Below are positions 1,271 through 24,039 of a stretch of 24,202 bases of DNA, piece after piece (positions within the stretch are counted from its first letter, which is position 1; each line of letters begins with the position of its first letter). The position numbers and the translations under genes are program-made. The stretch is from a virus: IMG/VR virus record IMGVR_UViG_3300031658_000122, positions 1-24,202 of that record; one strand, 5' to 3'. Below the pieces are notes generated by a model. The model was not told the origin of the DNA. It searched no databases and worked only from the letters and a program-made list of their open reading frames with translations.

Positions 1271-3427
1271 TTAACCCCTTTTCATCCCTGCGCCTAGTGA
1301 TAAGTAGTCGAATAATCCTGGGGTGTACCCAGATGTTTGAGAACCAACATTAGGTGCGCCACCCACTGCTTGAAGCAATGCTTGTAAGCTCTGTTGTGGT
1401 GCGCCTGTGAAGCCTTGATACTGGCCTTTAGCTTCGTTAATAAGCTGCTGCTGTAGTGCCTGTTGTGCCAAGCCCTGCTGATCCATACGGTTCTGAATCT
1501 GCTGGCCCATACCGAAGCCCAAGTTAGACAAGTTGCCAAGCTGACTTGCTGCGCCTAGACGCTGCTGCGATCCTGATAAGCCTGCATTCTGGTTAGCTAA
1601 TCGTGCTTGCATCATGGCTGATTGATTCATCTGGCCTGCCTGATTAAAGGCGTTAGCACCGAATTGACCAGCCTGATTGTAAGCACCTTGGTTAGCCTGT
1701 TGAGCCGCCAAAGAGTTAGCTGCTGAGGCTTGTTGTGCCTGCATACCTGCTGACTGATTAGCTAATGATGCTTGGTTAGTAGCATTGGCTCCAAACTGTC
1801 CTGCTTGCATATTTGCAGCTTGGTTTGCTTGCTGTACCGATAGCTGATTAGCTGCTGTTGCTTGATTAGCCTGCAATCCTGCTGACTGATTAGCTAACCC
1901 TGCCTGATTCAATGCAGAAGCACCAAACTGACCTGCTTGCATTTGTGCGTTCTGATTAGCCTGCTGTACGGATAAAGCGTTTGCTGCTGTAGCTTGCTGT
2001 GCTTGCATACCTGCCTGTTGATTAGCCATACCTGCCTGATTTAGTGCGCTTGCACCGAATTGGCCTGATTGGTTAAGTGCTTGCTGGTTTGCCTGCTGTG
2101 CCTGTAGAGCGTTGCCTGCCGATGCTTGCTGCGCTTGTACACTAGATTGTCGGTTAGCTAATGCCGCTTGGTTTGCTGCACTTGCGCCAAACTGACCTGA
2201 CTGCATACGGGCCGCTTGGTTGGCTTGTTGCGCTGCCAGTGTATTAGCCGCGTTAATCTGCTGCGCCTGTATTCCTGCACTCTGGTTAGCTAATGATGCC
2301 TGATTCTGAGCCGAAGCACCGAACTGACTAGACTGCATTTGTGCTGCCTGATTAGCCTGTTGGCGCTGTAGATCAGTACCTACGTTAAACTGTCCAGCCT
2401 GCATATTTGCTTGCTGATTAGATAAGTCTGCCTGCATTCTACGGTCAATATCTTGGCCTGCCTGCTCTTGTGCATTCATATAACCAGCTTGACGCAAGCC
2501 TGATGCTGTCTTAGCAGCCTGCTCTGCAAAGGCTCGATTAGTCTCAGACTCTGCAATACCCTGACGCGATCCGCCATAAGCATTAGCTGCACCTGCCTGC
2601 GCTCCACCAACATTCTGGGCCATCAAACGCTGGCGCTCAATATCACCAAGGGCTTGATCTACAACCTGAGTCTCGTATGGATTGGTATAAGCAAATAAGC
2701 CAGTGCCAGATAATTGACCAGCCTTAATGTTATCAGCAGATACAGTGCGAACATCACCAATAGTGCTGGCTCCATAACCCTGCCCGATCACATTATTTGA
2801 TGTTACGTCATTGGCTCCAGCTATTGTGGATGGGCCATAGCCTTGGCTTGCAACATCGTAGGAGTTAATTGGATTTACGCCAGCTACGCTAGACGCATTA
2901 TAGCCCTGCCCAGTTACATTAGAAGCCGTGATTGGATTAACGCCTGCCATCGCTACTGAATCGTAGCCCCTACCTACTACATTATCGGAAGTTATTGGGT
3001 CAACACCAGCCATTGCTGATGGATCGTAACCTTCACCAACTATACTGTCAGATGTAATTGGATTAACACCTGCCATAGTTGCTGGATTATACCCACGCTG
3101 ACGAACGATTGCAGGATTGACCTGCATAGGGCGGTAGCCTGTCTCTGCTGCTGCCGTACCCATAGCGCCTTGTAAACCCTGCGCTGCTGCTTGGTTTACA
3201 TTAAAGCCTTGCTGCGGCTGACTTATAGCGGAAGGAGCTTGGCTAATTCCACTACCAACCTCACCACCCCTAGTGGGAGCTGTAGGAGATCCATAAACCA
3301 CTTGATTAGGGTCGCCACCTACAAGACCTCTAAGCGGCCCTCTTGATGCTGTGTTTTGTATACCTTTATACATTTGATTTGCAAAAGTACTTGGTATTTG
3401 GCTATTTCTGCCTGCTGATGCTGCCAT
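1271..3427 (-). CDS. Repeat-rich virion protein with 21-residue and 44-residue arrays
   Basis: This 718-residue protein starts with an ATG preceded by AAGGA at 8-9 bases. Residues 112-237 hold six tandem 21-residue repeats with consensus GY..S.MAGVNPITSDNVVGQ. Residues 240-340 contain the segment TNPYETQVVDQALGDIERQR followed by a Gly/Ala-rich GGSRQGIAESETNRAFAEQAA region, a pattern I recognise from uncharacterised marine phage proteins. Residues 356 to about 619 form six 44-residue Gln/Ala/Asn-rich repeats, each divisible into four 11-residue units, as expected for hendecad coiled coils. The C-terminus is unique and ends in LFDYLSLGAGMKRG. No enzyme motif is seen. Its place beside other ejection-type proteins suggests an elongated virion component. 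Confidence 0.75.
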   Translation of the reverse strand: MAASAGRNSQIPSTFANQMYKGIQNTASRGPLRGLVGGDPNQVVYGSPTAPTRGGEVGSGISQAPSAISQPQQGFNVNQAAAQGLQGAMGTAAAETGYRPMQVNPAIVRQRGYNPATMAGVNPITSDSIVGEGYDPSAMAGVDPITSDNVVGRGYDSVAMAGVNPITASNVTGQGYNASSVAGVNPINSYDVASQGYGPSTIAGANDVTSNNVIGQGYGASTIGDVRTVSADNIKAGQLSGTGLFAYTNPYETQVVDQALGDIERQRLMAQNVGGAQAGAANAYGGSRQGIAESETNRAFAEQAAKTASGLRQAGYMNAQEQAGQDIDRRMQADLSNQQANMQAGQFNVGTDLQRQQANQAAQMQSSQFGASAQNQASLANQSAGIQAQQINAANTLAAQQANQAARMQSGQFGASAANQAALANRQSSVQAQQASAGNALQAQQANQQALNQSGQFGASALNQAGMANQQAGMQAQQATAANALSVQQANQNAQMQAGQFGASALNQAGLANQSAGLQANQATAANQLSVQQANQAANMQAGQFGANATNQASLANQSAGMQAQQASAANSLAAQQANQGAYNQAGQFGANAFNQAGQMNQSAMMQARLANQNAGLSGSQQRLGAASQLGNLSNLGFGMGQQIQNRMDQQGLAQQALQQQLINEAKGQYQGFTGAPQQSLQALLQAVGGAPNVGSQTSGYTPGLFDYLSLGAGMKRG
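1571..2362 (-). repeat. Six 132-bp tandem repeats coding for 44-residue hendecad units
   Basis: The units begin QQANQ and contain SGQFGASA.NQA and LANQSAGMQAQQ; five are exactly 44 residues and the sixth decays at its C-terminal end. Each unit splits into four 11-residue segments. The DNA repeats are diverged rather than identical, so this is an old expansion. Confidence 0.85.
2717..3094 (-). repeat. Six 63-bp tandem repeats coding for 21-residue units
   Basis: Each unit starts GY and carries MAGVNPIT or a close variant, followed by a V.GQ or V.GR ending. The last unit (IGDVRTVSADNIKAG) is the most diverged. The Gly/Pro-bearing turn pattern suggests a repeated beta or linker structure rather than a helix. 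Confidence 0.85.
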
Positions 3428-7485: not shown

Positions 7486-10368
7486 CTAGATTCCCTTTAT
7501 AAGTAATGTGGTTGCGCTTACTGCCTTACCTGCTATAACAGATGGGGTGTCAGCCGTTGTAGCTAAGGTCGCGTCACCTTGAACATAATAAGTAGCGCCT
7601 ATGGTTAAGCCGCTTTGGTTGGTAGATATACCACCTTGTAAAGCTATAGTGGCAGTTTGCCCATTAGTGAATGCTGCTGCGGAGGTTCCAGCGAAGTTGG
7701 TAGAAGTGAGGTTGGTTTCGGGGCGCACAGTGCCCATCTGACCTAGTATGGCTCTTCCGTTGCTGCTTACATCGTAAGCAACCACAAACTCACCCCCTTT
7801 GTTTGGATCAAAGGCTACTACGGTGTAATTTGTAGTTGCTGAGCTAAGTACATTCTCAGAACCAAAGGTAGCTGAAGTTCCAGAGATTGTACCCACTATT
7901 ACCGTACCGTAACTGGAATTACTCATATCTTTGTAAGCAACCACAAACTTACCTGCTGTGTTTGGATCAAAGGATATTGAGCTGTAGAGGGAAGTTCCTG
8001 AGTTATATACAACTTCACTTCCAAAGGTAGCTGAGGTTCCAGAGATTGTACCTACAACCACAGTACCGTAAGTGGAGTTACCTGCATCTGAGTAAGCAAC
8101 CACAAACTTTCCTGCTGTGTTTGGATCAAAGGCTACGTTGATATAACTTGTGGATGCTGAGTTATATACAGCCTCACTTCCAAAACTTATAGAAGTTCCT
8201 GAGACTGTACCTACTTTTGCTATACCGTAGGTGGAGGTAGAATTCTTGCAAACAACAATAAACTTATCTGCTGTACTAGGATCACATGATACTGAGATGT
8301 AACTTGTAGATGCTGCGTTAAATACAAATTCACTTCCGAAGGTAATTGAAGTTCCAGATACCGTACCTACTATTGCAGAACCATAATTAGAGTTACTTCC
8401 ATCTTGGTAAGCTACAACAAACTTACCTGCATTGTTAGGATCAAATGATATTGCGGTTTCAATAGTAGTTCCTGAGTTAAATATAATCTCAGAACCAAAG
8501 GTAATTGAAGTGCCCGTGATTGTACCTACTACCGCAGTACCTCGGCTGGAGTTACTAGAATCTCTGTAAGTAAACACAAGCATTCCTGCTGTGTTTGGAT
8601 CAAAGTCTACTGAGACGCTTGAAGTACTTCCTGCGTTAAATATAATCTCACTTCCAAAACTTATAGATGTGCCAGAAACTGTACCTACAACCACAGTACC
8701 CTTAGCGCCATTACCCATATCTTTGTAAGCAACCACAAACTTACCTGCTGTGTTAGGGTCATAGGCCATTGAGTTCATCCAAGCGTTTTGTGAGTTATAT
8801 ACAGCCTCACTTCCACTTGGAATACTTTCAGGTATAGTTGTTGGGGTGGCAACAACAGCCTCAATAGTTCCGTTAGACTTTAGTACAACAGGTACACCAT
8901 TAGGTAAAGTACCCGAAGCCACGAAATCTGCTGAGTTACCGCCCGCAGGTAGGTTTGTTAATGCCGCTCCGCTAATTGCAGGTAAAGCACCTGTAAGCAT
9001 TGAAGCAGGTAGCGTGGAGGGTAAAATGTAGTTGTTAGCTGACGTAGCAATACCATCTAACTTAGTGCCATCAGTAGCCACATCACGACCATCAAAGGTG
9101 CTGTTAGTGGTGATAGCGCCTGTCATGGCTCCACCAGACTTTAGTAGGTAATCACCTGTCACTATAGGCGCTACATCTTGCCATGATGAACCGTTCCAAA
9201 CTTGGCTCTTGCCTGATGTTGCGTTGTAATACTGAGCACCTAAAATAAGCGCATTACCTTGGTTATCAGTAGATGGCGCAGAGGCTTTAGAGCCTAAGTA
9301 GCGATCATCGAATGAGTCAAAGCTGGCAGAAGCAGAGGTGGCTGAGTTAGAAGCGGCTGTAGCCGATGTACTTGCATTACCTTCACTTGTAGCAGCGTTA
9401 GCAGCACTTGTAGCAGCGGCGGCTGTAGAGCCAAATAATACGTCAGTGTAGTTTTTAGTCGAAGCATCTTGCGCCTGCGTAGGATCTGCTACACCTGTGA
9501 TCTTGTTAGCGCCCATTGCTAGTACGCCAGACATAGTGCCACCTGACTTATCTAGCTTCTGAGTGTCTACACTATCAGCGTATGCTTTGGTGGCAGCGTC
9601 TGTGCCTGCGGTTGGAGTGCCAAGACCTGTGATCTTGTTGGTTCCCATTGCGATAGCGCCAGACATAGTGCCGCCAGCTTTAGGTAGTTTGGTTGCAACG
9701 CTTGCTGCTATCGTGGTGGCAAATGCTTCGTCATCGCCCAATGCGGCTGCTAGCTCGTTAAGAGTGTCTAGGTTAGCTGGAGCATTATCTATTAGGTTTG
9801 CTACTGCGGTATCTACATAAGACTTAGTGGCTGCATCTGAGGCTTGTACGGGTGTAGATAGTCCCGTGATAGTAGCGGAAGTGCCAGCGTCCATATCTAA
9901 TGAACCGCCAATAGTCACATGATTAAATGTGCTTGTTCCTGAGCCAGCAGTTATATTACCTGTTACATCACCTGTAACCGCGCCTGTGTGTACGCCAGCA
10001 GTGTTGCCTGTTACGTTACCTGTTACAGCGCCTGCTAATGGCCCTACAAAGTTAGCACCTGTGATAGTCGTACCGACAACCGTAGAAGCGGCAGAAGCAC
10101 CGATCTGAGTAGCATCAAGCGTACCACCATTAATATCAACTGTAGTAGCAACTAGGCCAGTGAACGTACCGCCAGCAGGAACTGCACCACCGATAACAGC
10201 GTTATCAACTGTGCCTGAGTTAATGTCGATACCTGTAATTGGCGTAGTACCGCCTAACAAGTTATCAGTCTTGAGCCAGTTAGCGTTTAACTTAGTACCC
10301 CAAGTATCATCAGATGCCCCTACTTCTGGGCTAGTGTATCCGTATACTGGTGTTGTAGTGTCAGCCAT
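7486..10368 (-). CDS. Tail fibre protein with seven-unit C-terminal repeat domain
   Basis: A 960-residue protein. The N-terminus (VYGYTSPEVGASDDTWGTKLNANW) is typical of virion-anchored marine phage fibres. It is followed by Gly/Thr/Val-rich beta repeats, then fibre-shaft modules: two copies of GGTMSG....G.NKITG and three of the A.TK.Y.D type at about residues 180-310, and an Ala/Ser-rich helical stretch. The block FDDRYLGSKASAPSTDNQGN precedes a beta module. Residues 520-880 hold seven tandem units of about 53 residues. The C-terminal 75 residues carry the familiar fibre end module GLTIGATYYVQGDATL..T..TPSV.AGKA. It is probably the receptor-binding fibre; the receptor is unknown. Confidence 0.88.
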   Translation of the reverse strand: MADTTTPVYGYTSPEVGASDDTWGTKLNANWLKTDNLLGGTTPITGIDINSGTVDNAVIGGAVPAGGTFTGLVATTVDINGGTLDATQIGASAASTVVGTTITGANFVGPLAGAVTGNVTGNTAGVHTGAVTGDVTGNITAGSGTSTFNHVTIGGSLDMDAGTSATITGLSTPVQASDAATKSYVDTAVANLIDNAPANLDTLNELAAALGDDEAFATTIAASVATKLPKAGGTMSGAIAMGTNKITGLGTPTAGTDAATKAYADSVDTQKLDKSGGTMSGVLAMGANKITGVADPTQAQDASTKNYTDVLFGSTAAAATSAANAATSEGNASTSATAASNSATSASASFDSFDDRYLGSKASAPSTDNQGNALILGAQYYNATSGKSQVWNGSSWQDVAPIVTGDYLLKSGGAMTGAITTNSTFDGRDVATDGTKLDGIATSANNYILPSTLPASMLTGALPAISGAALTNLPAGGNSADFVASGTLPNGVPVVLKSNGTIEAVVATPTTIPESIPSGSEAVYNSQNAWMNSMAYDPNTAGKFVVAYKDMGNGAKGTVVVGTVSGTSISFGSEIIFNAGSTSSVSVDFDPNTAGMLVFTYRDSSNSSRGTAVVGTITGTSITFGSEIIFNSGTTIETAISFDPNNAGKFVVAYQDGSNSNYGSAIVGTVSGTSITFGSEFVFNAASTSYISVSCDPSTADKFIVVCKNSTSTYGIAKVGTVSGTSISFGSEAVYNSASTSYINVAFDPNTAGKFVVAYSDAGNSTYGTVVVGTISGTSATFGSEVVYNSGTSLYSSISFDPNTAGKFVVAYKDMSNSSYGTVIVGTISGTSATFGSENVLSSATTNYTVVAFDPNKGGEFVVAYDVSSNGRAILGQMGTVRPETNLTSTNFAGTSAAAFTNGQTATIALQGGISTNQSGLTIGATYYVQGDATLATTADTPSVIAGKAVSATTLLIKGI
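7729..8811 (-). repeat. Seven 159-bp tandem repeats in the fibre gene
   Basis: Units of 53 residues (one of 52) share SE.V.N......I.FDPNTAGKFVVAY.D and VGT.SGTS..FG. Neighbouring units, especially those at about 7860-8190, are close at DNA level, which would allow unequal recombination to change copy number. Seven units of this size fit a seven-bladed propeller. Confidence 0.85.
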
Positions 10369-16171: not shown

Positions 16172-16933
16172 TTACCATTCAGGGGGATTTAGAATGGCCT
16201 GTGTGAATTTTTGAGTTCTGATTTGCTTTTCGTTGTAGCCAGAGGGATGGTTGATCACGGCCCCATTGGATTGCTTCTGGTCATCTTTAGGTATATAGAT
16301 CGTCTGCCAGCCTCCAACAATTGCGTTTTCAAGCATCTGCGTTGTGTCGTGACCATCATTAAATGCTTTAGAGATTTTGTTAATCAGTAAAGAAATAGCT
16401 TTCTGAGTCATTGGATTCTTCTTGGCTTTACGCATATCGATAAAGTCATTCAATAACTCACCGTCCAACCATTCAGGAATGATTAAATCGATAGAGGATT
16501 TCTTTTTTATTGGTTTGTTAATATGGTGTGTTACTTGGTGTGTTACTTGTACTTGGTCTCTCAGTCCAACATCGTACTTGGTGTCTGAGTCCAAATTGGA
16601 GTTGGTATCTGTGTCCAAGTTGGTCTCTAATGCCAAGTTGGTCTCTGAGTCCAAGTTGGTAAGACGTTCAGGCATACACATTGTGTATTGATTACACCCT
16701 GTAAAACCCTTCTTTTTCTTAGTTAACCAACCCTTTTTAGCAAGGCTAGTTGTGATCTTAGATACTCTGGTTTTATCATTGATGTTAGATCGTTCAGCAA
16801 GCGCGTCTAAGCTAGGAAAAACCAACTCCGTCACTTTGCCTCGGTAGCTAAATAAAGCCAGTAGGACGCGCCTCTCTGGATCAGAAAGTAGTGAATCAGT
16901 TAGCGCCTCTAGCGGTGCTACAAGAATACTCAC
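16172..16933 (-). CDS. O-like replication initiator
   Basis: A 253-residue protein with a GTG start, AGGGG 6 bases upstream and a GTGA overlap with the previous stop. Residues about 18-75 are a winged helix (SLDALAERSNINDKTRVSKI, then SLAKKGWLTKKKKGFTG), the domain that would bind origin iterons. Residues 92-125 are a Thr/Asp/Asn-rich linker encoded by the iterons. The C-terminal part, IIPEWLDGELLNDFIDMRKA, then TQKAISLLINKI and MLENAIVGGWQTIYIP, is a pattern common at the end of phage and DnaT/DnaD-like replication proteins that recruit the helicase system. Role inferred: recognise the origin and start replication with host helicase and loader. Confidence 0.85.
   Translation of the reverse strand: MSILVAPLEALTDSLLSDPERRVLLALFSYRGKVTELVFPSLDALAERSNINDKTRVSKITTSLAKKGWLTKKKKGFTGCNQYTMCMPERLTNLDSETNLALETNLDTDTNSNLDSDTKYDVGLRDQVQVTHQVTHHINKPIKKKSSIDLIIPEWLDGELLNDFIDMRKAKKNPMTQKAISLLINKISKAFNDGHDTTQMLENAIVGGWQTIYIPKDDQKQSNGAVINHPSGYNEKQIRTQKFTQAILNPPEW
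16480..16654 (-). other. Probable replication origin inside the initiator gene
   Basis: Five 17-bp imperfect palindromes of the type TTGGTCTCTGAGTCCAA begin at 16553, 16578, 16602, 16620 and 16638; the last three are exactly 18 bp apart. Half sites flank them (TTGGT at 16535 and 16656, CCAAATTGG at 16591). An AT-rich stretch with TTTTTTAT lies alongside at about 16480-16525. This is the arrangement of the lambda origin, with O iterons next to an unwinding element. Confidence 0.8.
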
Positions 16934-17148
16934 CCTAAGCCCCTCTCACGTATTCTCTGAACATCCTTTGAGATGATCGGGAAAGCATCCGATAATTCGG
17001 AATGTAAACGCTTATGGAATTCGAGGTCTTGAGAAATGAGTAAATTAATACGTTCAGTTTTAGATACCCCTAGTGCGGCACACATCTTGCCAAACACTAA
17101 GTCTTTCTCTAAATCCAAATTAACGGTCATTTTATACTTTTCAGGCAT
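16930..17148 (-). CDS. Ribbon-helix-helix-like small regulator in the cII position
   Basis: A 72-residue protein with AAGGTGG before its ATG, which shares a base with the cro stop (TAATG). The N-terminal pattern KYKMTVNLDLEKDLVFGKMC, then GVSKTERINLLIS, fits a ribbon-helix-helix fold: a strand followed by two helices with a GVS-type turn. The C-terminus is helical and basic. Between cro and the initiator lambda has cII, so this may be an early regulator. It does not resemble CII in sequence. DNA binding is predicted, not shown. Confidence 0.65.
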   Translation of the reverse strand: MPEKYKMTVNLDLEKDLVFGKMCAALGVSKTERINLLISQDLEFHKRLHSELSDAFPIISKDVQRIRERGLG

Positions 17149-17330
17149 TACGCCACCTTTGACTGAGCAGTTTGATTTATTTGAGTTAGAAGCTCATGGA
17201 TCTGGTAGCCGCGTAGAGGAGGAACGTATTCGCCCCACTGAGAAACGGCTGAGTGTTGAATCCCAAGAGCATCAGCTAGTTTTTTGACACCACCAAATGT
17301 GCCTACGGCTTCTGATTTAAGTATTTTCAT
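17148..17330 (-). CDS. cro: Cro-like repressor
   Basis: A 60-residue protein (P22 Cro has 61) with the family pattern FGGVKKLADALGIQHSAVSQWGEYVPPLRGYQIHELL split over a helix-turn-helix at about residues 12-32. It would repress the cI promoter and later the early promoters. I chose the ATG at 17330 because the predicted transcription start falls on or next to it; an in-frame ATG at 17351 lies upstream of that start. No ribosome-binding site precedes 17330, so a leaderless mRNA is possible. It overlaps the next gene by one base. Confidence 0.85.
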   Translation of the reverse strand: MKILKSEAVGTFGGVKKLADALGIQHSAVSQWGEYVPPLRGYQIHELLTQINQTAQSKVA

Positions 17331-17337
17331 GTAAGGA

Positions 17338-17355
17338 ATGTTACTGCACATACAT
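17338..17355. promoter_or_regulatory. Operator overlapping the cro promoter -10
   Basis: ATGTATGTGCAGTAACAT on the minus strand. It shares the ATGT(n10)ACAT frame and the TAACAT end with the operators at 17386 and 18383. Binding here would block the cro promoter. Confidence 0.6.
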
Positions 17356-17385: not shown

Positions 17386-17403
17386 ATGTAAGATTGCTAA
17401 CAT
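17386..17403. promoter_or_regulatory. Operator and -10 of the cI promoter
   Basis: ATGTAAGATTGCTAACAT, an imperfect palindrome with half sites ATGTnAG and CTnACAT. Its right end is a TG-extended -10 (TGCTAACAT, hexamer 17398-17403) reading toward cI. No good -35 is seen, so the promoter is probably weak or activated. Confidence 0.65.
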
Positions 17404-17429: not shown

Positions 17430-18056
17430 ATGGACTTAGGCAAGCGAATTAAGAATTTAAGAAAAGATCAGGGTTGGACACAGCTAGATCTGTCTAAGGC
17501 CACATCTTTAAGTAGGGGGCGTATTGCCCAAATAGAAACTAACCCTCTCGCCGAGGTAAAAGGTGAATCTTTGGTTTCACTAGCGAAAGCATTCGGGTAC
17601 TCAACTGAGCAATTACTGTCAGATGACGAGCTTGGGTTATTAGCGGGGTTGAAGCTACAACCAGTAACAAAGAAAGTTCCAGTAATAAGCTGGGCTTCTT
17701 TGGAAAGCGTAATGAACGGAAATTTTATGCTAGAAAGTAATCAATGGGTGGGATGCCCACACGATATTAGCGACAACTCGTTTGTCTTAGAAGTCGAAAA
17801 TGATCTGATGACAAGCTCCACAGGAAGAAGCTACCCCCGTGGAGCCTACATATTCATCGATCAGGATCGTAAACCAAGATCAGGTGATCGTGTAATAGCG
17901 ATAGACCGAAGCACAATGGAGTCAGTTTTTAGAGAGTATGTGATAGATGGCGGAATTAAGTATTTGAAACCTTTAAATACGGCTTACCCAATACAAACGT
18001 GCAGTGAATCAACACATATTATTGGAGTGATTGTTGGCTCCTATATGGCTGAGTAA
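17430..18056 (+). CDS. CI-like repressor lacking autocleavage residues
   Basis: A 208-residue protein starting at the ATG at 17430 (GGCGGA 8 bases upstream). Residues 1-65 are a helix-turn-helix domain (LGKRIKNLRKDQGWTQLDLS, then LSRGRIAQIET). Residues 82-205 follow the S24/LexA C-terminal fold, with ENDLMTSSTGRSYPRGAYIF, then DGGIKYLKPLN. In cleavable relatives the cleavage pair is Ala-Gly, the nucleophile is the Ser of GDSM and the base is a Lys before ..VIDGG. Here these positions are Ala89-Ser90, Leu126 and Arg168. The protein should still dimerise and hold the lysogenic state, but self-cleavage looks impossible. Divergent from cro. Confidence 0.88.
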   Translation: MDLGKRIKNLRKDQGWTQLDLSKATSLSRGRIAQIETNPLAEVKGESLVSLAKAFGYSTEQLLSDDELGLLAGLKLQPVTKKVPVISWASLESVMNGNFMLESNQWVGCPHDISDNSFVLEVENDLMTSSTGRSYPRGAYIFIDQDRKPRSGDRVIAIDRSTMESVFREYVIDGGIKYLKPLNTAYPIQTCSESTHIIGVIVGSYMAE

Positions 18057-18063
18057 TATTATT

Positions 18064-18279
18064 ATGCAAACTATATTTGATAATAAAAGTAAATTACAAA
18101 TCCGCGCGATGGCCTGGATGCGTAATTCTGAATGGAGATGGTACTTCACCCATGTTGATTGGATGAATAGCCTAATGCCACGCACTGGACTAACGTCCAT
18201 GCTAGTGTGGTTCACCGCGGATGGATTAAGTTTTGGTTGTGATTCCATCACCAACCTATCTAACGGCCCGAACGATTAA
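18064..18279 (+). CDS. Possible small Trp-rich protein after the repressor
   Basis: A 71-residue open frame beginning 8 bp after the repressor stop. It contains five Trp residues (MAWMRNSEWRWYFTHVDWMN, then MLVWFTADGL). No ribosome-binding site precedes the ATG, and no family is recognised. If real it would be co-transcribed with the repressor in the lysogen, a usual place for superinfection-exclusion or other lysogenic-conversion genes. The opposite strand also has an 81-codon frame. Low confidence. Confidence 0.4.
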   Translation: MQTIFDNKSKLQIRAMAWMRNSEWRWYFTHVDWMNSLMPRTGLTSMLVWFTADGLSFGCDSITNLSNGPND

Positions 18280-18433: not shown

Positions 18434-18775
18434 ATGAATTCATATACCAAGTTAAACACTAAGCATTTTGAGCTAAACCATTACGGTCAGTTAGTAACGC
18501 CAGACCTGAATGAGTTTATCGCTGAGTTTACCGAAGAAGGTTCGTTCACAACGCCAGAAGGTACGGTTGAAGCTAATGATTTGCTTGAGCACATTGACTT
18601 CTCTACTCGACAGATCGCCCATGACGCTATCCAAATGGAAGCCTTAAAAGGTGCGCCACTTAGCGAGGCTGAAGCCGCCAAGAACTGGTTCAAGCTAGAA
18701 GCGTTAATGAATGACGCTGCTGCTGACTTCTATAAAAGCAACATTGTTCCTGATTATCAGGATGGTGATTTATGA
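18434..18775 (+). CDS. First gene of the early-left type operon, unknown
   Basis: A 113-residue acidic protein with GGAG 7 bases before the ATG. It is beta/alpha mixed at the start (KHFELNHYGQLVTPDLNEFI) and helical at the end (LSEAEAAKNWFKLEALMNDA). No family recognised. Its place first behind the operator-controlled promoter is where lambda has the N antiterminator, but it is acidic rather than arginine-rich, so an N-type RNA-binding role is unlikely. Its stop overlaps the next start (ATGA). Confidence 0.7.
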   Translation: MNSYTKLNTKHFELNHYGQLVTPDLNEFIAEFTEEGSFTTPEGTVEANDLLEHIDFSTRQIAHDAIQMEALKGAPLSEAEAAKNWFKLEALMNDAAADFYKSNIVPDYQDGDL

Positions 18776-20096: not shown

Positions 20097-20654
20097 TTGA
20101 ATTACTACGGAATTAAAACCCCAGAAGAGAAGAAAGCTATTGCCAAAAAGCGTACTGATACTAGGCAGCGCAATAAGCTAATTAAAGAAGCCGCTCTAAG
20201 GGAGCAGATGCTAAGGCTAGACTCTGTAGAAATGCAAATCAAGGATCTTGAAGACCATCGAGATAGATTAGGAAGAGAAGTTGTTATGGGTAATTTATCT
20301 GCCAAGTTGACAGGTAAAACATTACTTAGAGAATGTGAGATTTTGGATGGATGCCAGCCGTGGACTAAAGCGGTTGGCGTTTATTTTCTTATAAAAGATG
20401 GGCGTGTAGTTTATGTTGGCCAATCTGGTTCAGTGTATAGCCGTATCTCAAACCACCAAAGCTCGAAAGACTTTGACTCTATAGCTTGGGTTCCATGTGA
20501 TACCAGCATATTAGACAGACTTGAATCGTTATACATACACTCATTGAGGCCAATCCTGAATGGAACTATGAATAATGGCTACAAATCTGCACCAATGTCG
20601 CTAGACAAAATATTTATGGAGAAAGATTATGATGGCAGCAACAGCAACGAATGA
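20097..20654 (+). CDS. GIY-YIG nuclease domain protein
   Basis: A 185-residue protein with a TTG start supported by AGGGAG 8 bases before it; the first in-frame ATG is at residue 38. Residues 10-65 are a charged helical or coiled-coil segment. Residues 93-156 are a GIY-YIG domain: GVY (94-96), YVG (106-108), Arg116, Glu143 and Asn155 form the expected catalytic set. No DNA-binding module of homing nucleases is seen. Position among erf, SSB-tail and int genes suggests a recombination or host-DNA-cutting role rather than a mobile intron nuclease. Confidence 0.82.
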   Translation: MNYYGIKTPEEKKAIAKKRTDTRQRNKLIKEAALREQMLRLDSVEMQIKDLEDHRDRLGREVVMGNLSAKLTGKTLLRECEILDGCQPWTKAVGVYFLIKDGRVVYVGQSGSVYSRISNHQSSKDFDSIAWVPCDTSILDRLESLYIHSLRPILNGTMNNGYKSAPMSLDKIFMEKDYDGSNSNE

Positions 20655-20898: not shown

Positions 20899-21065
20899 CG
20901 TTAAAAGAGAAGTTAGCAGCACGAATTGAGATAGAGCGCATCAAAATAGAGATCGCTAATTACGAAGAAGCAATGAGATCTATTAGCAAGTTTGCAGATT
21001 ACCATCGGTCAAGGATTGCCGTACTGGAAGGGAGAATTGAAGATGTTAGATCGCGTACTTATTAG
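20895..21065 (+). CDS. Small coiled-coil protein
   Basis: A 56-residue protein starting MTLKEKLAARIEIERIKIEI and ending RIEDVRSRTY, with heptad-spaced Leu and Ile over its full length. Its ATGA overlaps the previous stop, and its 3' end overlaps the xis start by 23 bases. It resembles short phage helical proteins of unknown role. Confidence 0.55.
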   Translation: MTLKEKLAARIEIERIKIEIANYEEAMRSISKFADYHRSRIAVLEGRIEDVRSRTY

Positions 21066-21321
21066 GAAGTTTTGTGAGCTGTCAGGCCACGGCTATGACG
21101 CAATTTATAAAAAGTGCAATAATGGGGTGTTTACCGAGGGCAAGGAATTCTTTCGAGCTCCCGACAATCACTATTTTATAAGCATATCGGGGTTTGAAAA
21201 ATGGGTAGAAAGTACACAGGTGTTAGCGCCCGTAGTGAGGCGACAATCGAGATCACGTTCACCTACCAGAATAGTCGGTGTCGAGAGACAATCAACCTCA
21301 AGCCTACGTCCGCTAATCTAA
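21043..21321 (+). CDS. xis: Excisionase-like protein
   Basis: I chose the ATG at 21043 (92 residues), with GGGAG 8 bases before it. Residues 1-57 match an excisionase-type winged helix: MLDRVLIRKFCELSGHGYDA, then IYKKCNNGVFTEGKEFFRAP and HYFISISGFEKWVE. Such proteins bend DNA at the attachment site and direct the integrase toward excision. The arginine- and serine-rich tail (58-92) overlaps the integrase gene by 121 bases, longer than usual, so the tail may be dispensable. Position directly before int supports the call. Confidence 0.78.
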   Translation: MLDRVLIRKFCELSGHGYDAIYKKCNNGVFTEGKEFFRAPDNHYFISISGFEKWVESTQVLAPVVRRQSRSRSPTRIVGVERQSTSSLRPLI

Positions 21322-22406
21322 AGAGGGCATCCAACCACCGCGCCTCGATCTTGCATGAGATCGACACAGGGGTATTTGATTACGCTGCTGTATTCCCTGA
21401 ATCACCCTCATTACATAAGTTTGCTAATTTAATTTTAGATACAACCATTGAGCAAGTGCTACGGAAATGGCTGTCTATCAAGAACCCTCAACTACAAGCA
21501 TCCACTAGGGATAGCTACAAAAAGATCGTATTCAATCAGCTTATGCCTCAGTTCGGTCATTTATCTGTCCATGAGTTTCGCGCCCATCACATGAGAGATT
21601 GGATAGTCTCTTGCGCCAGCATGGGTAATAAGCGAATCATCAACGTAGTCTCCCCTATGCGCTGCGCACTTCAACTGGCAGTGAAGGATGAAGTCATTGA
21701 TAAAAACCACCTACACCTATTTGAATATAGACGGGCCGAGACATACGCCCAAGTGAAAGCCAAAGCATTAAAGCTCGATCCCTTCGTCCCTGACGATATG
21801 AACCTCATTATCGACACAGCAACAGGCCAAGAGCGGAACCTATTCCAGACCGCGTTTTGGTCAGGCATGAGAACAAGTGAACTTTGCGCCCTACTGTGGA
21901 GCGATATTGATTTCAAGAATGGAACAATCAGCGTTGATAAAGGATTAACTCAAGCATCAGACGAAGCGGAACCACCAAAGACGGTTGCAGGTGAACGATT
22001 GATTAAAATGCTACCTCAAGCCCGAAGCGCATTGCTGGCTCAAAAAGAATACACGTTCCTGCAAAACAAAGAAGTCTTTCACGATTCGCTACATGATAAG
22101 CCTTGGGTTGGCGATCAACCAATTCGTAAACGCTGGACGGCTATCTTGAGAAAAGCTGGGGTTCGTTATCGCAGGCCATACCAAACTCGTCACACTTACG
22201 CATCGATGATGTTAACGTCTGGCGAGAAATTAGGATGGTTCAGTAAACAGCTTGGGCATAAGAATGCCAACGTAACGACAAGTATTTATGCAAAGTGGAT
22301 CGAAACAATTGATTCTGACTCTGGAAATCTGATTGATGCTAAATTCGGGGACGGGGGTTCGATTTCCAAACGAGGAACCGAACTGAGAATAGTGGTTAAA
22401 AAGTAA
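21201..22406 (+). CDS. int: Tyrosine integrase
   Basis: A 401-residue tyrosine recombinase that joins attP to the host site. Residues 1-60 look like the arm-DNA-binding domain of this integrase group. Residues 80-170 are the core-binding domain (STRDSYKKIVFNQLMPQFGH). The catalytic domain has Arg224 (FWSGMRTSEL), a probable Lys260, Arg330 (YQTRHTYAS), His353 (LGHKNAN) and Tyr363 (SIYAKWI). The usual first His of HxxR is Tyr327, which is normal in relatives I know. The start has GGGG 8 bases upstream. The last 20 codons contain a 13-bp match to the attachment core. The gene ends 79 bp before that core. Confidence 0.92.
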   Translation: MGRKYTGVSARSEATIEITFTYQNSRCRETINLKPTSANLKRASNHRASILHEIDTGVFDYAAVFPESPSLHKFANLILDTTIEQVLRKWLSIKNPQLQASTRDSYKKIVFNQLMPQFGHLSVHEFRAHHMRDWIVSCASMGNKRIINVVSPMRCALQLAVKDEVIDKNHLHLFEYRRAETYAQVKAKALKLDPFVPDDMNLIIDTATGQERNLFQTAFWSGMRTSELCALLWSDIDFKNGTISVDKGLTQASDEAEPPKTVAGERLIKMLPQARSALLAQKEYTFLQNKEVFHDSLHDKPWVGDQPIRKRWTAILRKAGVRYRRPYQTRHTYASMMLTSGEKLGWFSKQLGHKNANVTTSIYAKWIETIDSDSGNLIDAKFGDGGSISKRGTELRIVVKK

Positions 22407-22791: not shown

Positions 22792-23004
22792 ATGAGTAGT
22801 TTTATAGAAGCGCAAGATGAATTTCACAACACTATGTGTCAAGCCGAAGCCGTTATTGGGTCGCTTTATGATAATTTCAGGTTTGAAGATTTGGAACCTG
22901 ACCATGTTGGGGCGCTATTATCTCTAATAAAGGATAATCTCAAGAAGCTAGGATGCACATACGAGGGTACGATAGCGGCAGTGAATAATGAACTAGGAGC
23001 ATAA
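22792..23004 (+). CDS. Small acidic protein, right-end operon
   Basis: A 70-residue protein starting MSSFIEAQDEFHNTMCQAEA, with AGGAG 6 bases before the ATG. It appears all-helical and acidic (two helices, about 3-28 and 35-68, linked by RFEDLEPDH). First gene behind a strong promoter and the leader hairpin. No family recognised. Confidence 0.65.
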   Translation: MSSFIEAQDEFHNTMCQAEAVIGSLYDNFRFEDLEPDHVGALLSLIKDNLKKLGCTYEGTIAAVNNELGA

Positions 23005-23005
23005 A

Positions 23006-23212
23006 ATGAGTATTGACTATCTAGTTACACCCAACACAAATGTTGACGAAATTCAGCTTGAAAAAATCAAAGCTAAGTTTGGGGGTCGCATTCAAATTGA
23101 AGAACAGTTATTGGATGGGCAAGATGAAGATATTTACCTTGTCGAGTTTCGCTGGGTTGATATTAAGCAAATCCGTGAGATTGAAGCGTTTATGTTAGAC
23201 CTTTATAAGTAA
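23006..23212 (+). CDS. Small hypothetical protein, right-end operon
   Basis: A 68-residue protein starting MSIDYLVTPNTNVDEIQLEK, with AGGAG 7 bases before the ATG and a 1-bp gap from the previous gene. The pattern is alpha/beta: a helix at 14-24, strands GRIQIEEQLL and DIYLVEFRWV, and a C-terminal helix DIKQIREIEAFMLDLY. The ribosome-binding region ACTAGGAG repeats that of its neighbours. Function unknown. Confidence 0.65.
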   Translation: MSIDYLVTPNTNVDEIQLEKIKAKFGGRIQIEEQLLDGQDEDIYLVEFRWVDIKQIREIEAFMLDLYK

Positions 23213-23219
23213 ATTAATA

Positions 23220-23231
23220 GGGCTTCGGCCC
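23220..23231 (+). promoter_or_regulatory. UUCG tetraloop hairpin in the intergenic leader
   Basis: GGGC-TTCG-GCCC, a very stable small hairpin in the 54-bp gap before the 133-residue gene. No T run follows, so it more likely stabilises or marks a processed mRNA end than terminates. Confidence 0.5.
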
Positions 23232-23236
23232 ACCGC

Positions 23237-23251
23237 CCAAGCGGAACTTGG
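23237..23251 (+). promoter_or_regulatory. Leader hairpin, copy 2
   Basis: CCAAG-CGGAA-CTTGG followed by ACTAGGAGAAATG. It repeats copy 1, with the same stem, a one-base loop change and the same downstream ribosome-binding region. Confidence 0.6.
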
Positions 23252-23266
23252 ACTAGGAGAAATGAA

Positions 23267-23668
23267 ATGTATAAAACATACCTTGAATATTGTGAAGCTA
23301 AATTGAAAAGTGCGATCAATGATGAATTTGATCTATCTAAGCGGCTTGATTCACTTAGGGAGAAATGCCGCGAAGCTCAGGAGTGTATGGCAGATTTAAG
23401 TCGTACAGTTGACGGCATAAAGAACGCGCCAACAAAGACTAAGCGTGAAGTCATGGCTAAAGCTAATGAGCTTGATATTGAAGTAAGCGACTGCTCTTAT
23501 GAAGATTATTATAATGTAGAGATTATTGCGCCAAATGGATTTCAGTTTGAAGAAAATGAATGTCAATCTAAAGAATTTGATTGTGATAAATATTCATATA
23601 CAAAAGGCATGATGTGGCAATTGGTTTACGACTGCCTTGAACTGCAAGAGAGGGATGAAGATGAATAA
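23267..23668 (+). CDS. Hypothetical protein with N-terminal coiled coil
   Basis: A 133-residue protein starting MYKTYLEYCEAKLKSAINDE, with AGGAG upstream. Residues 5-55 look like a coiled coil (LSKRLDSLREKCREAQECMA). The C-terminal half is acidic, Tyr- and Cys-bearing (SDCSYEDYYNVEIIAP), and ends ELQERDEDE. Preceded by the second copy of the leader hairpin. No family recognised. Confidence 0.65.
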   Translation: MYKTYLEYCEAKLKSAINDEFDLSKRLDSLREKCREAQECMADLSRTVDGIKNAPTKTKREVMAKANELDIEVSDCSYEDYYNVEIIAPNGFQFEENECQSKEFDCDKYSYTKGMMWQLVYDCLELQERDEDE

Positions 23669-23858
23669 CATGCGATATAGAACACCAACCAATAACCATG
23701 ACGCGGCTGTTTTAGCCCTTGATATATTCATGCGAGTTGATGAAGATGATCAAGATGGTCGAAGCAAGGCGTACTGTATGCTTGATTATTTCTTTGATCA
23801 AATGACCGAAGAAGAGATAAGTGCGGCTGAACAAGCTGGCGACTACCAAAAGAGTTGA
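23661..23858 (+). CDS. Small acidic hypothetical protein
   Basis: I chose the ATG at 23661 (65 residues), with AGGG about 6 bases before it; it overlaps the previous gene by 8 bases. The sequence is acidic (FMRVDEDDQDGRSKAYCMLD, then QMTEEEISAAEQAG) and helical. Acidic composition is shared with its neighbours. Function unknown. Confidence 0.6.
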   Translation: MNNMRYRTPTNNHDAAVLALDIFMRVDEDDQDGRSKAYCMLDYFFDQMTEEEISAAEQAGDYQKS

Positions 23859-23862
23859 TATT

Positions 23863-24039
23863 ATGACTGAACCACATGGAAACACTGGCAATAAGAACGG
23901 GGCAAAAGAAGTTACGAAATCGTCCGTCTTAACGATCCGCTGCACCCCTCAAGAAAAGGGGTTATGGGTTAAGGCTTCTCATGGTAATAAGCTGGCAGTT
24001 TGGGTAACTGATGCGCTTAACGCAGCGGCTGATAAATAA
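23863..24039 (+). CDS. Ribbon-helix-helix-like small protein
   Basis: A 58-residue protein from the ATG at 23863. A polar start (MTEPHGNTGNKNGAKE) precedes SSVLTIRCTPQEKGLWVKAS and KLAVWVTDALNAAA, a strand-helix-helix pattern resembling ribbon-helix-helix or relaxase-accessory proteins (T.R.sp.Ek..w..A.....l..W....LN). The ribosome-binding site is weak. Possibly a DNA-binding regulator of this operon, for example at the 22718 palindrome; that link is a guess. Confidence 0.6.
   Translation: MTEPHGNTGNKNGAKEVTKSSVLTIRCTPQEKGLWVKASHGNKLAVWVTDALNAAADK

Follow-up and report, generated by a model that had tools for sequence, protein, structure and literature searches.

Prophage induction is classically explained by RecA-stimulated self-cleavage of the repressor, and autocleaving repressors of the S24/LexA type carry a scissile Ala-Gly (or Cys-Gly) together with a catalytic Ser and a catalytic Lys. 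Non-cleavable phage repressors are already known from Gifsy, N15 and 186; in phage 186, whose antirepressor is Tum, the C-terminal domain of CI is folded like LexA and has no cleavage residues. The Gifsy repressors likewise escape cleavage, and antirepressors under LexA control inactivate them (PMC3121763); among linear-plasmid phages the CI proteins of 210 of 271 loci are predicted to be non-autoproteolytic, as N15 CI was found to be (PMC10432266). Here we analyse a 24.2-kb stretch of viral DNA (the window), which is a whole virus record that may itself be a fragment. What appears to be new, within the literature searched, is a clade of P22/lambda-type repressors that keep a complete S24 fold, have lost all three cleavage elements and have living intermediates.

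How does this repressor compare with the described systems? It has the same domain order as P22 C2, phage 21 CI and lambda CI, and is about 34-35% identical to the first two over the whole protein; it also has the C-terminal fold of lambda CI and, like all three, a divergent cI-cro immunity region with OR and OL. All three carry Ala-Gly, Ser and Lys and autocleave, whereas the window's clade lacks all three elements. A repressor without cleavage residues is the feature shared with Gifsy- and N15-type systems. Like the repressors of Gifsy-1/2/3 (GfoR, GtgR, GfhR; antirepressors such as GfoA), it belongs to a lambdoid phage and is probably non-cleavable, but the Gifsy-1/-2 repressor is a small protein of 136 aa with no cleavage motif, whereas the window repressor keeps the whole S24 fold with dead residues (PMC3121763); Gifsy also has an antirepressor and a LexA site, neither of which was found in our searches of the window phage. 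The N15-type CI is non-autoproteolytic and comes from a temperate phage, as the window's does, but N15 is another phage type (TelN/RepA) with a known SOS-regulated antirepressor (PMC10432266). Structural neighbours of the window repressor include 7jvt, a hybrid of the lambda and 186 repressors; phage 186 is P2-like, and the similarity is much weaker (13-14% identity in the Foldseek alignment).

The repressor gene and the codons at the three cleavage positions are as follows:

17430..18056, + strand: CI/C2-like repressor of 208 aa, with an HTH at about residues 3-65 and an S24-fold C-terminal domain at about residues 81-208
17700..17705, + strand: Leu91-Glu92, aligned with the scissile Ala-Gly (21-sequence alignment and survey)
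17805..17807, + strand: Leu126, aligned with the catalytic Ser (alignments and survey)
17931..17933, + strand: Arg168, aligned with the catalytic Lys, which in lambda is Lys192 (alignments and survey)

The original prediction, made from the sequence alone, was of a CI-like repressor that had kept the fold around its lost residues, and both parts are borne out. Pfam finds HTH_3 and Peptidase_S24 (PF00717, E 4e-13), the best PHROGs match is phrog_4 'transcriptional repressor' (E 2e-30), the best phage matches are the CI/C2 proteins of phage 21, mEp235, DE3 and P22 (about 34-36% identity), and the best PDB matches are lambda CI. An AlphaFold model built from the clade alignment, of moderate confidence (pLDDT 77.6, pTM 0.57), aligns in its C-terminal half with lambda CI bound to RecA (8gmu; VIA-align Z 14.2, 121 residues, 3.3 A, 33% identity) and in its N-terminal half with P22 C2 on operator DNA. 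The protein thus has the N-terminal HTH and C-terminal S24/LexA fold of lambdoid CI/C2 repressors (phrog_4). Leu126 lies at a short helix of the model and Arg168 in a strand, as expected of the Ser and Lys sites.

The phmmer alignment pairs Leu126 with lambda Ser149 and Arg168 with lambda Lys192 (replaced by Ala in 2hnf/8gmu), a 21-sequence alignment agrees, and both positions are as the prediction had them. For the cleavage site it had named Ala89-Ser90. The lambda/P22 motif 'ISWV-S/Q-A-G' aligns with 'ISWA-S-L-E', which sets the scissile place at Leu91-Glu92, and the 21-sequence alignment likewise lays the W-x-x-Ala-Gly of P22, lambda and VP882 (H-V-Q-Ala-Gly in lambda) on W-A-S-Leu91-Glu92; Ala89-Ser90 is therefore ruled out as a cleavage-site remnant, and the shift of two residues downstream leaves intact the conclusion that a scissile Ala-Gly is missing. 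None of the hallmarks of an autocleaving repressor is in place, neither Ala-Gly nor Cys-Gly at the site, nor the catalytic Ser and Lys. Could an active site have re-formed elsewhere, as would have spoken against the prediction? Among the invariant residues of the dead clade (repressors lacking all three elements), Ser165 and Lys180 were the sole new or shared candidates, Lys180 being family-wide, and no pair fits a replacement Ser/Lys dyad, so this candidate was rejected. Judged on sequence alone, it is possible that Arg168 serves as general base, or that an unconventional nucleophile is used, and that cleavage still occurs.

The loss is fixed across a clade. Searches of viral contigs with the repressor returned 25, then 30 relatives at 63-80% identity, and the clade comprises 23 unique homologues on 30 or more contigs. 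In a survey of 77 unique repressors the site, Ser and Lys positions read L-x, L or V, and R in 23/23 members of the window's clade, compared with AG/S/K in 53/54 sampled repressors outside it (AA/S/K in the remaining one), a fraction that overstates the number of independent lineages because many of the 54 are P22 variants. In a tree of 41 diverse rows the dead sequences form one clade with support 100/100. A three-way loss fixed in 23 sequences, set against an almost uniformly intact outgroup, is more than chance would give and is no single-genome accident.

A search begun from an intact relative (L281) yielded intermediates: L323/L324 with AG.S.K, L326 with LS.S.K, L327/L328 with LS.Q.K and L325 with LN.L.K. 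The intact L324 comes from contig 3300020187_000123. All these relatives and the window's clade form one group (support 97/94) that includes the intact relative, and the graded series replaced an all-or-none dichotomy of dead and intact repressors. Within this group the partial and full losses are not one clade in the best tree, which implies that AG was lost more than once; a single loss of AG is not the best tree and is not rejected (AU p 0.198). The cleavage apparatus thus eroded stepwise, probably more than once, with Lys the last part lost among the sampled states. As a resource, the partial-loss repressors of L325-L331 (LS.S.K, LS.Q.K, LN.L.K) make up a natural series from intact to dead. 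Taken together, sequence, fold, clade-wide fixation and graded relatives strongly support the predicted loss of RecA-stimulated autocleavage.

The immunity region around the gene has the following features:

17148..17351, - strand: Cro of the P22_Cro family, divergent from cI (Pfam PF14549, E 3e-16), conserved in the clade
17386..17403, no strand assigned: predicted OR-position operator ATGTAAGATTGCTAACAT between cI and cro, with a counterpart at -43 to -65 relative to cI in most clade members
17338..17355, no strand assigned: weaker operator-like site ATGTTACTGCACATACAT adjoining the cro start, with 2 mismatches; similar sites in L031 and L036
18383..18400, no strand assigned: predicted OL-position operator ATGTCAGTGTGCTAACAT, which precedes the rightward early operon
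18434..18775, + strand: gene for a 113-aa protein, the first one past the OL operator, at the position of N in lambda and gene 24 in P22

As in lambdoid CI/C2 repressors generally, the gene diverges from cro and has operator-like sites on both sides, at which binding is predicted. The 18-mer ATGTNAGNNNNCTNACAT occurs exactly twice in the window, at 17386 and 18383, and 0 times in 100 shuffles, a post hoc figure, since the two sites had been picked out by eye and used to define the motif before it was counted. An independent test is given by the relatives, in which the same palindrome recurs at conserved positions relative to the cI start, the OL-position site at +934 to +1021 with 0-2 mismatches in many of them. 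We infer from these positions that CI would bind the 17386 and 18383 sites, and the OR/OL arrangement of the palindromes supports a working repressor. The 18-bp motif was not found in the outside relatives L323-L331, which suggests that operator specificity changed between the groups.

Selection on the gene agrees. Comparisons within the clade give a dN/dS of about 0.06-0.13 over the whole repressor gene and, for pairs with unsaturated dS, of about 0.05-0.2 in the dead C-terminal domain, indicating that the repressor is maintained and not decaying. The missing motif residues might by themselves suggest a decaying, non-functional repressor in a defective prophage; we regard this as highly improbable in view of the strong purifying selection, the reading frame intact in more than 30 contigs and the conservation of operators, cro and integrase. 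Clade-wide fixation, purifying selection and recurring flanking operators instead make the repressor of this clade very probably a working, non-cleavable one. Our main reading, to which we give a probability of roughly 87%, is that it is a functional lambdoid immunity repressor without self-cleavage, induced other than by RecA-stimulated autocleavage.

We propose that the N-terminal HTH binds the 18-bp operators OR (17386) and OL (18383), silencing cro and the early operons, and that the C-terminal domain retains its S24/LexA fold for dimer or higher-order assembly, having lost cleavage site, nucleophile and general base. DNA damage could then not inactivate CI via RecA-stimulated autocleavage, and the prophage would have to exit lysogeny otherwise; candidates are an antirepressor, repressor turnover, and Cro-driven or spontaneous switching. 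The loss would have arisen stepwise inside a clade known from metagenomes, where homologues changed in the site only, or in the site and Ser, persist.

The surrounding genes point to a temperate phage:

21201..22406, + strand: tyrosine integrase (phrog_1, E 5e-47), indicating a temperate phage
20992-21321: excisionase gene, overlapping the integrase gene (phrog_9668)

The genes around cI (P22-type Cro, NinG/Rap, replication O-like and NinB-like genes, terminases, Erf, SSB, excisionase and integrase) identify a lambdoid temperate phage. The clade consists of metagenome-derived sequences only, and scans of genome contigs for a host found no close relative. The terminase is similar to those of Paracoccus, Rhizobium and Sulfitobacter phages, while the repressor is similar to enterobacterial ones.

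That another induction route is needed, as originally predicted, is a fair inference, but the searches for SOS boxes and for ANT/Bro-N domains found no such route. The best-known solution for non-cleavable repressors is a LexA-controlled antirepressor (PMC3121763, PMC10432266), and SOS-linked induction of the Gifsy, N15 and 186 kind, by one encoded at another place in the genome, is a serious possibility, if one we lean against: gamma- and alpha-type SOS boxes in the window do not exceed chance (the host may have a different LexA box), relatives have no such site at a consistent place, and ANT or Bro-N antirepressor domains were absent from 11 records, which may be fragments.

The prediction had also suggested that small genes nearby might supply the inducer. 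One of them is closely linked to cI:

18064..18279, + strand: small gene of the cI operon, 71 aa, starting 8 nt past the cI stop

Homologues stand behind cI in every clade locus examined, so the gene is real, and homologous pairs evolve under purifying selection (dN/dS about 0.13-0.36). Searches of Pfam, PHROGs, NCBIfam and PADLOC gave no family for its product, and cultured phages gave no homologue; a structure model came out with low confidence (pLDDT 57.5) and was set aside. The family (about 66-78 aa; motif R-x-K-K-x-A-W-M ... W-x-W ... T-D ... Q/N-G-P-P) occurs in immunity operons of metagenomic phages (L223, L226, L228-L230, L237, L240, L281, L301, L308, L319, L323-L331), swapped between at least four repressor types. 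Two further repressor types among these loci, L223:3227-3886 and L237:3302-3973, have a distant S24-like C-terminal domain with no recognisable Ser/Lys dyad.

Did this gene, co-transcribed with cI, make cleavage dispensable by acting as antirepressor or inducer? It lies directly behind cI in the dead clade, behind all partial-state relatives and behind those two further repressor types, whose distant S24-like domains seem to lack the residues, it is absent at cleavable-repressor loci outside this group, and it is under the selection noted above. Yet family members also follow intact AG/S/K repressors (L281, L323, L324), which rules out a restriction to dead repressors, and occur in immunity regions that have no S24 repressor, the regulators there being HTH-only or MarR-like; the protein would, besides, be made together with the very repressor it is to block. 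Nor do companion and repressor identities correlate (Spearman -0.11): repressors that share just 17% identity can have companions that are 87% identical, and repressors that share 98-100% can have companions that share only 53-64%. Its presence beside intact and unrelated repressors and the uncorrelated identities argue against a dedicated antirepressor, a role we consider unlikely, and the gene is more likely a swappable lysogeny-operon cassette.

By analogy with lambda rexA, whose cI-operon position it shares, there is about an even chance that the gene is a variable superinfection-exclusion or lysogenic-conversion cassette unrelated to repressor inactivation; the swapping between unrelated repressors and the fast divergence fit such a cassette, against which stands the lack of any match in the four databases, PADLOC included. 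More speculatively, and in our view improbably, a RecA-independent means of inactivating the repressor, possibly via the cI-linked small-protein family, may have been gained before cleavage was lost, after which the cleavage parts would have eroded one by one, first the site, next the Ser and last the Lys, and the small protein would also have joined several unrelated non-cleavable repressors.

The clade and its relatives offer a natural series for studying the order in which autocleavage is lost, the purpose of a dead S24 domain and the signal that replaces DNA damage, and the 18064 gene defines a family of small, unannotated proteins linked to the immunity operons of phages.

Several other genes of the window merit mention. 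Behind cro, in the place of cII, a 72-aa protein (16930-17148, - strand) has weak similarity to ParG (ribbon-helix-helix) and is kept in 18 relatives. Between ssb and the small genes lies a nuclease-like gene (20097-20654, + strand) with a weak match to phrog_1111 'endonuclease' and another to the PADLOC candidate PDC-S14, missing from all relatives fetched. The ORFs at 22792-23858 have no homologue among the relatives searched, unlike a small, possibly ribbon-helix-helix protein 3' of the integrase (23821-24039, + strand), kept in five. Among the structural genes, 1271-3427 and 7486-10368 (both - strand) encode long repetitive proteins, with Gln/Ala-rich repeats and, in a tail-fibre-like protein, repeats about 50 aa long.
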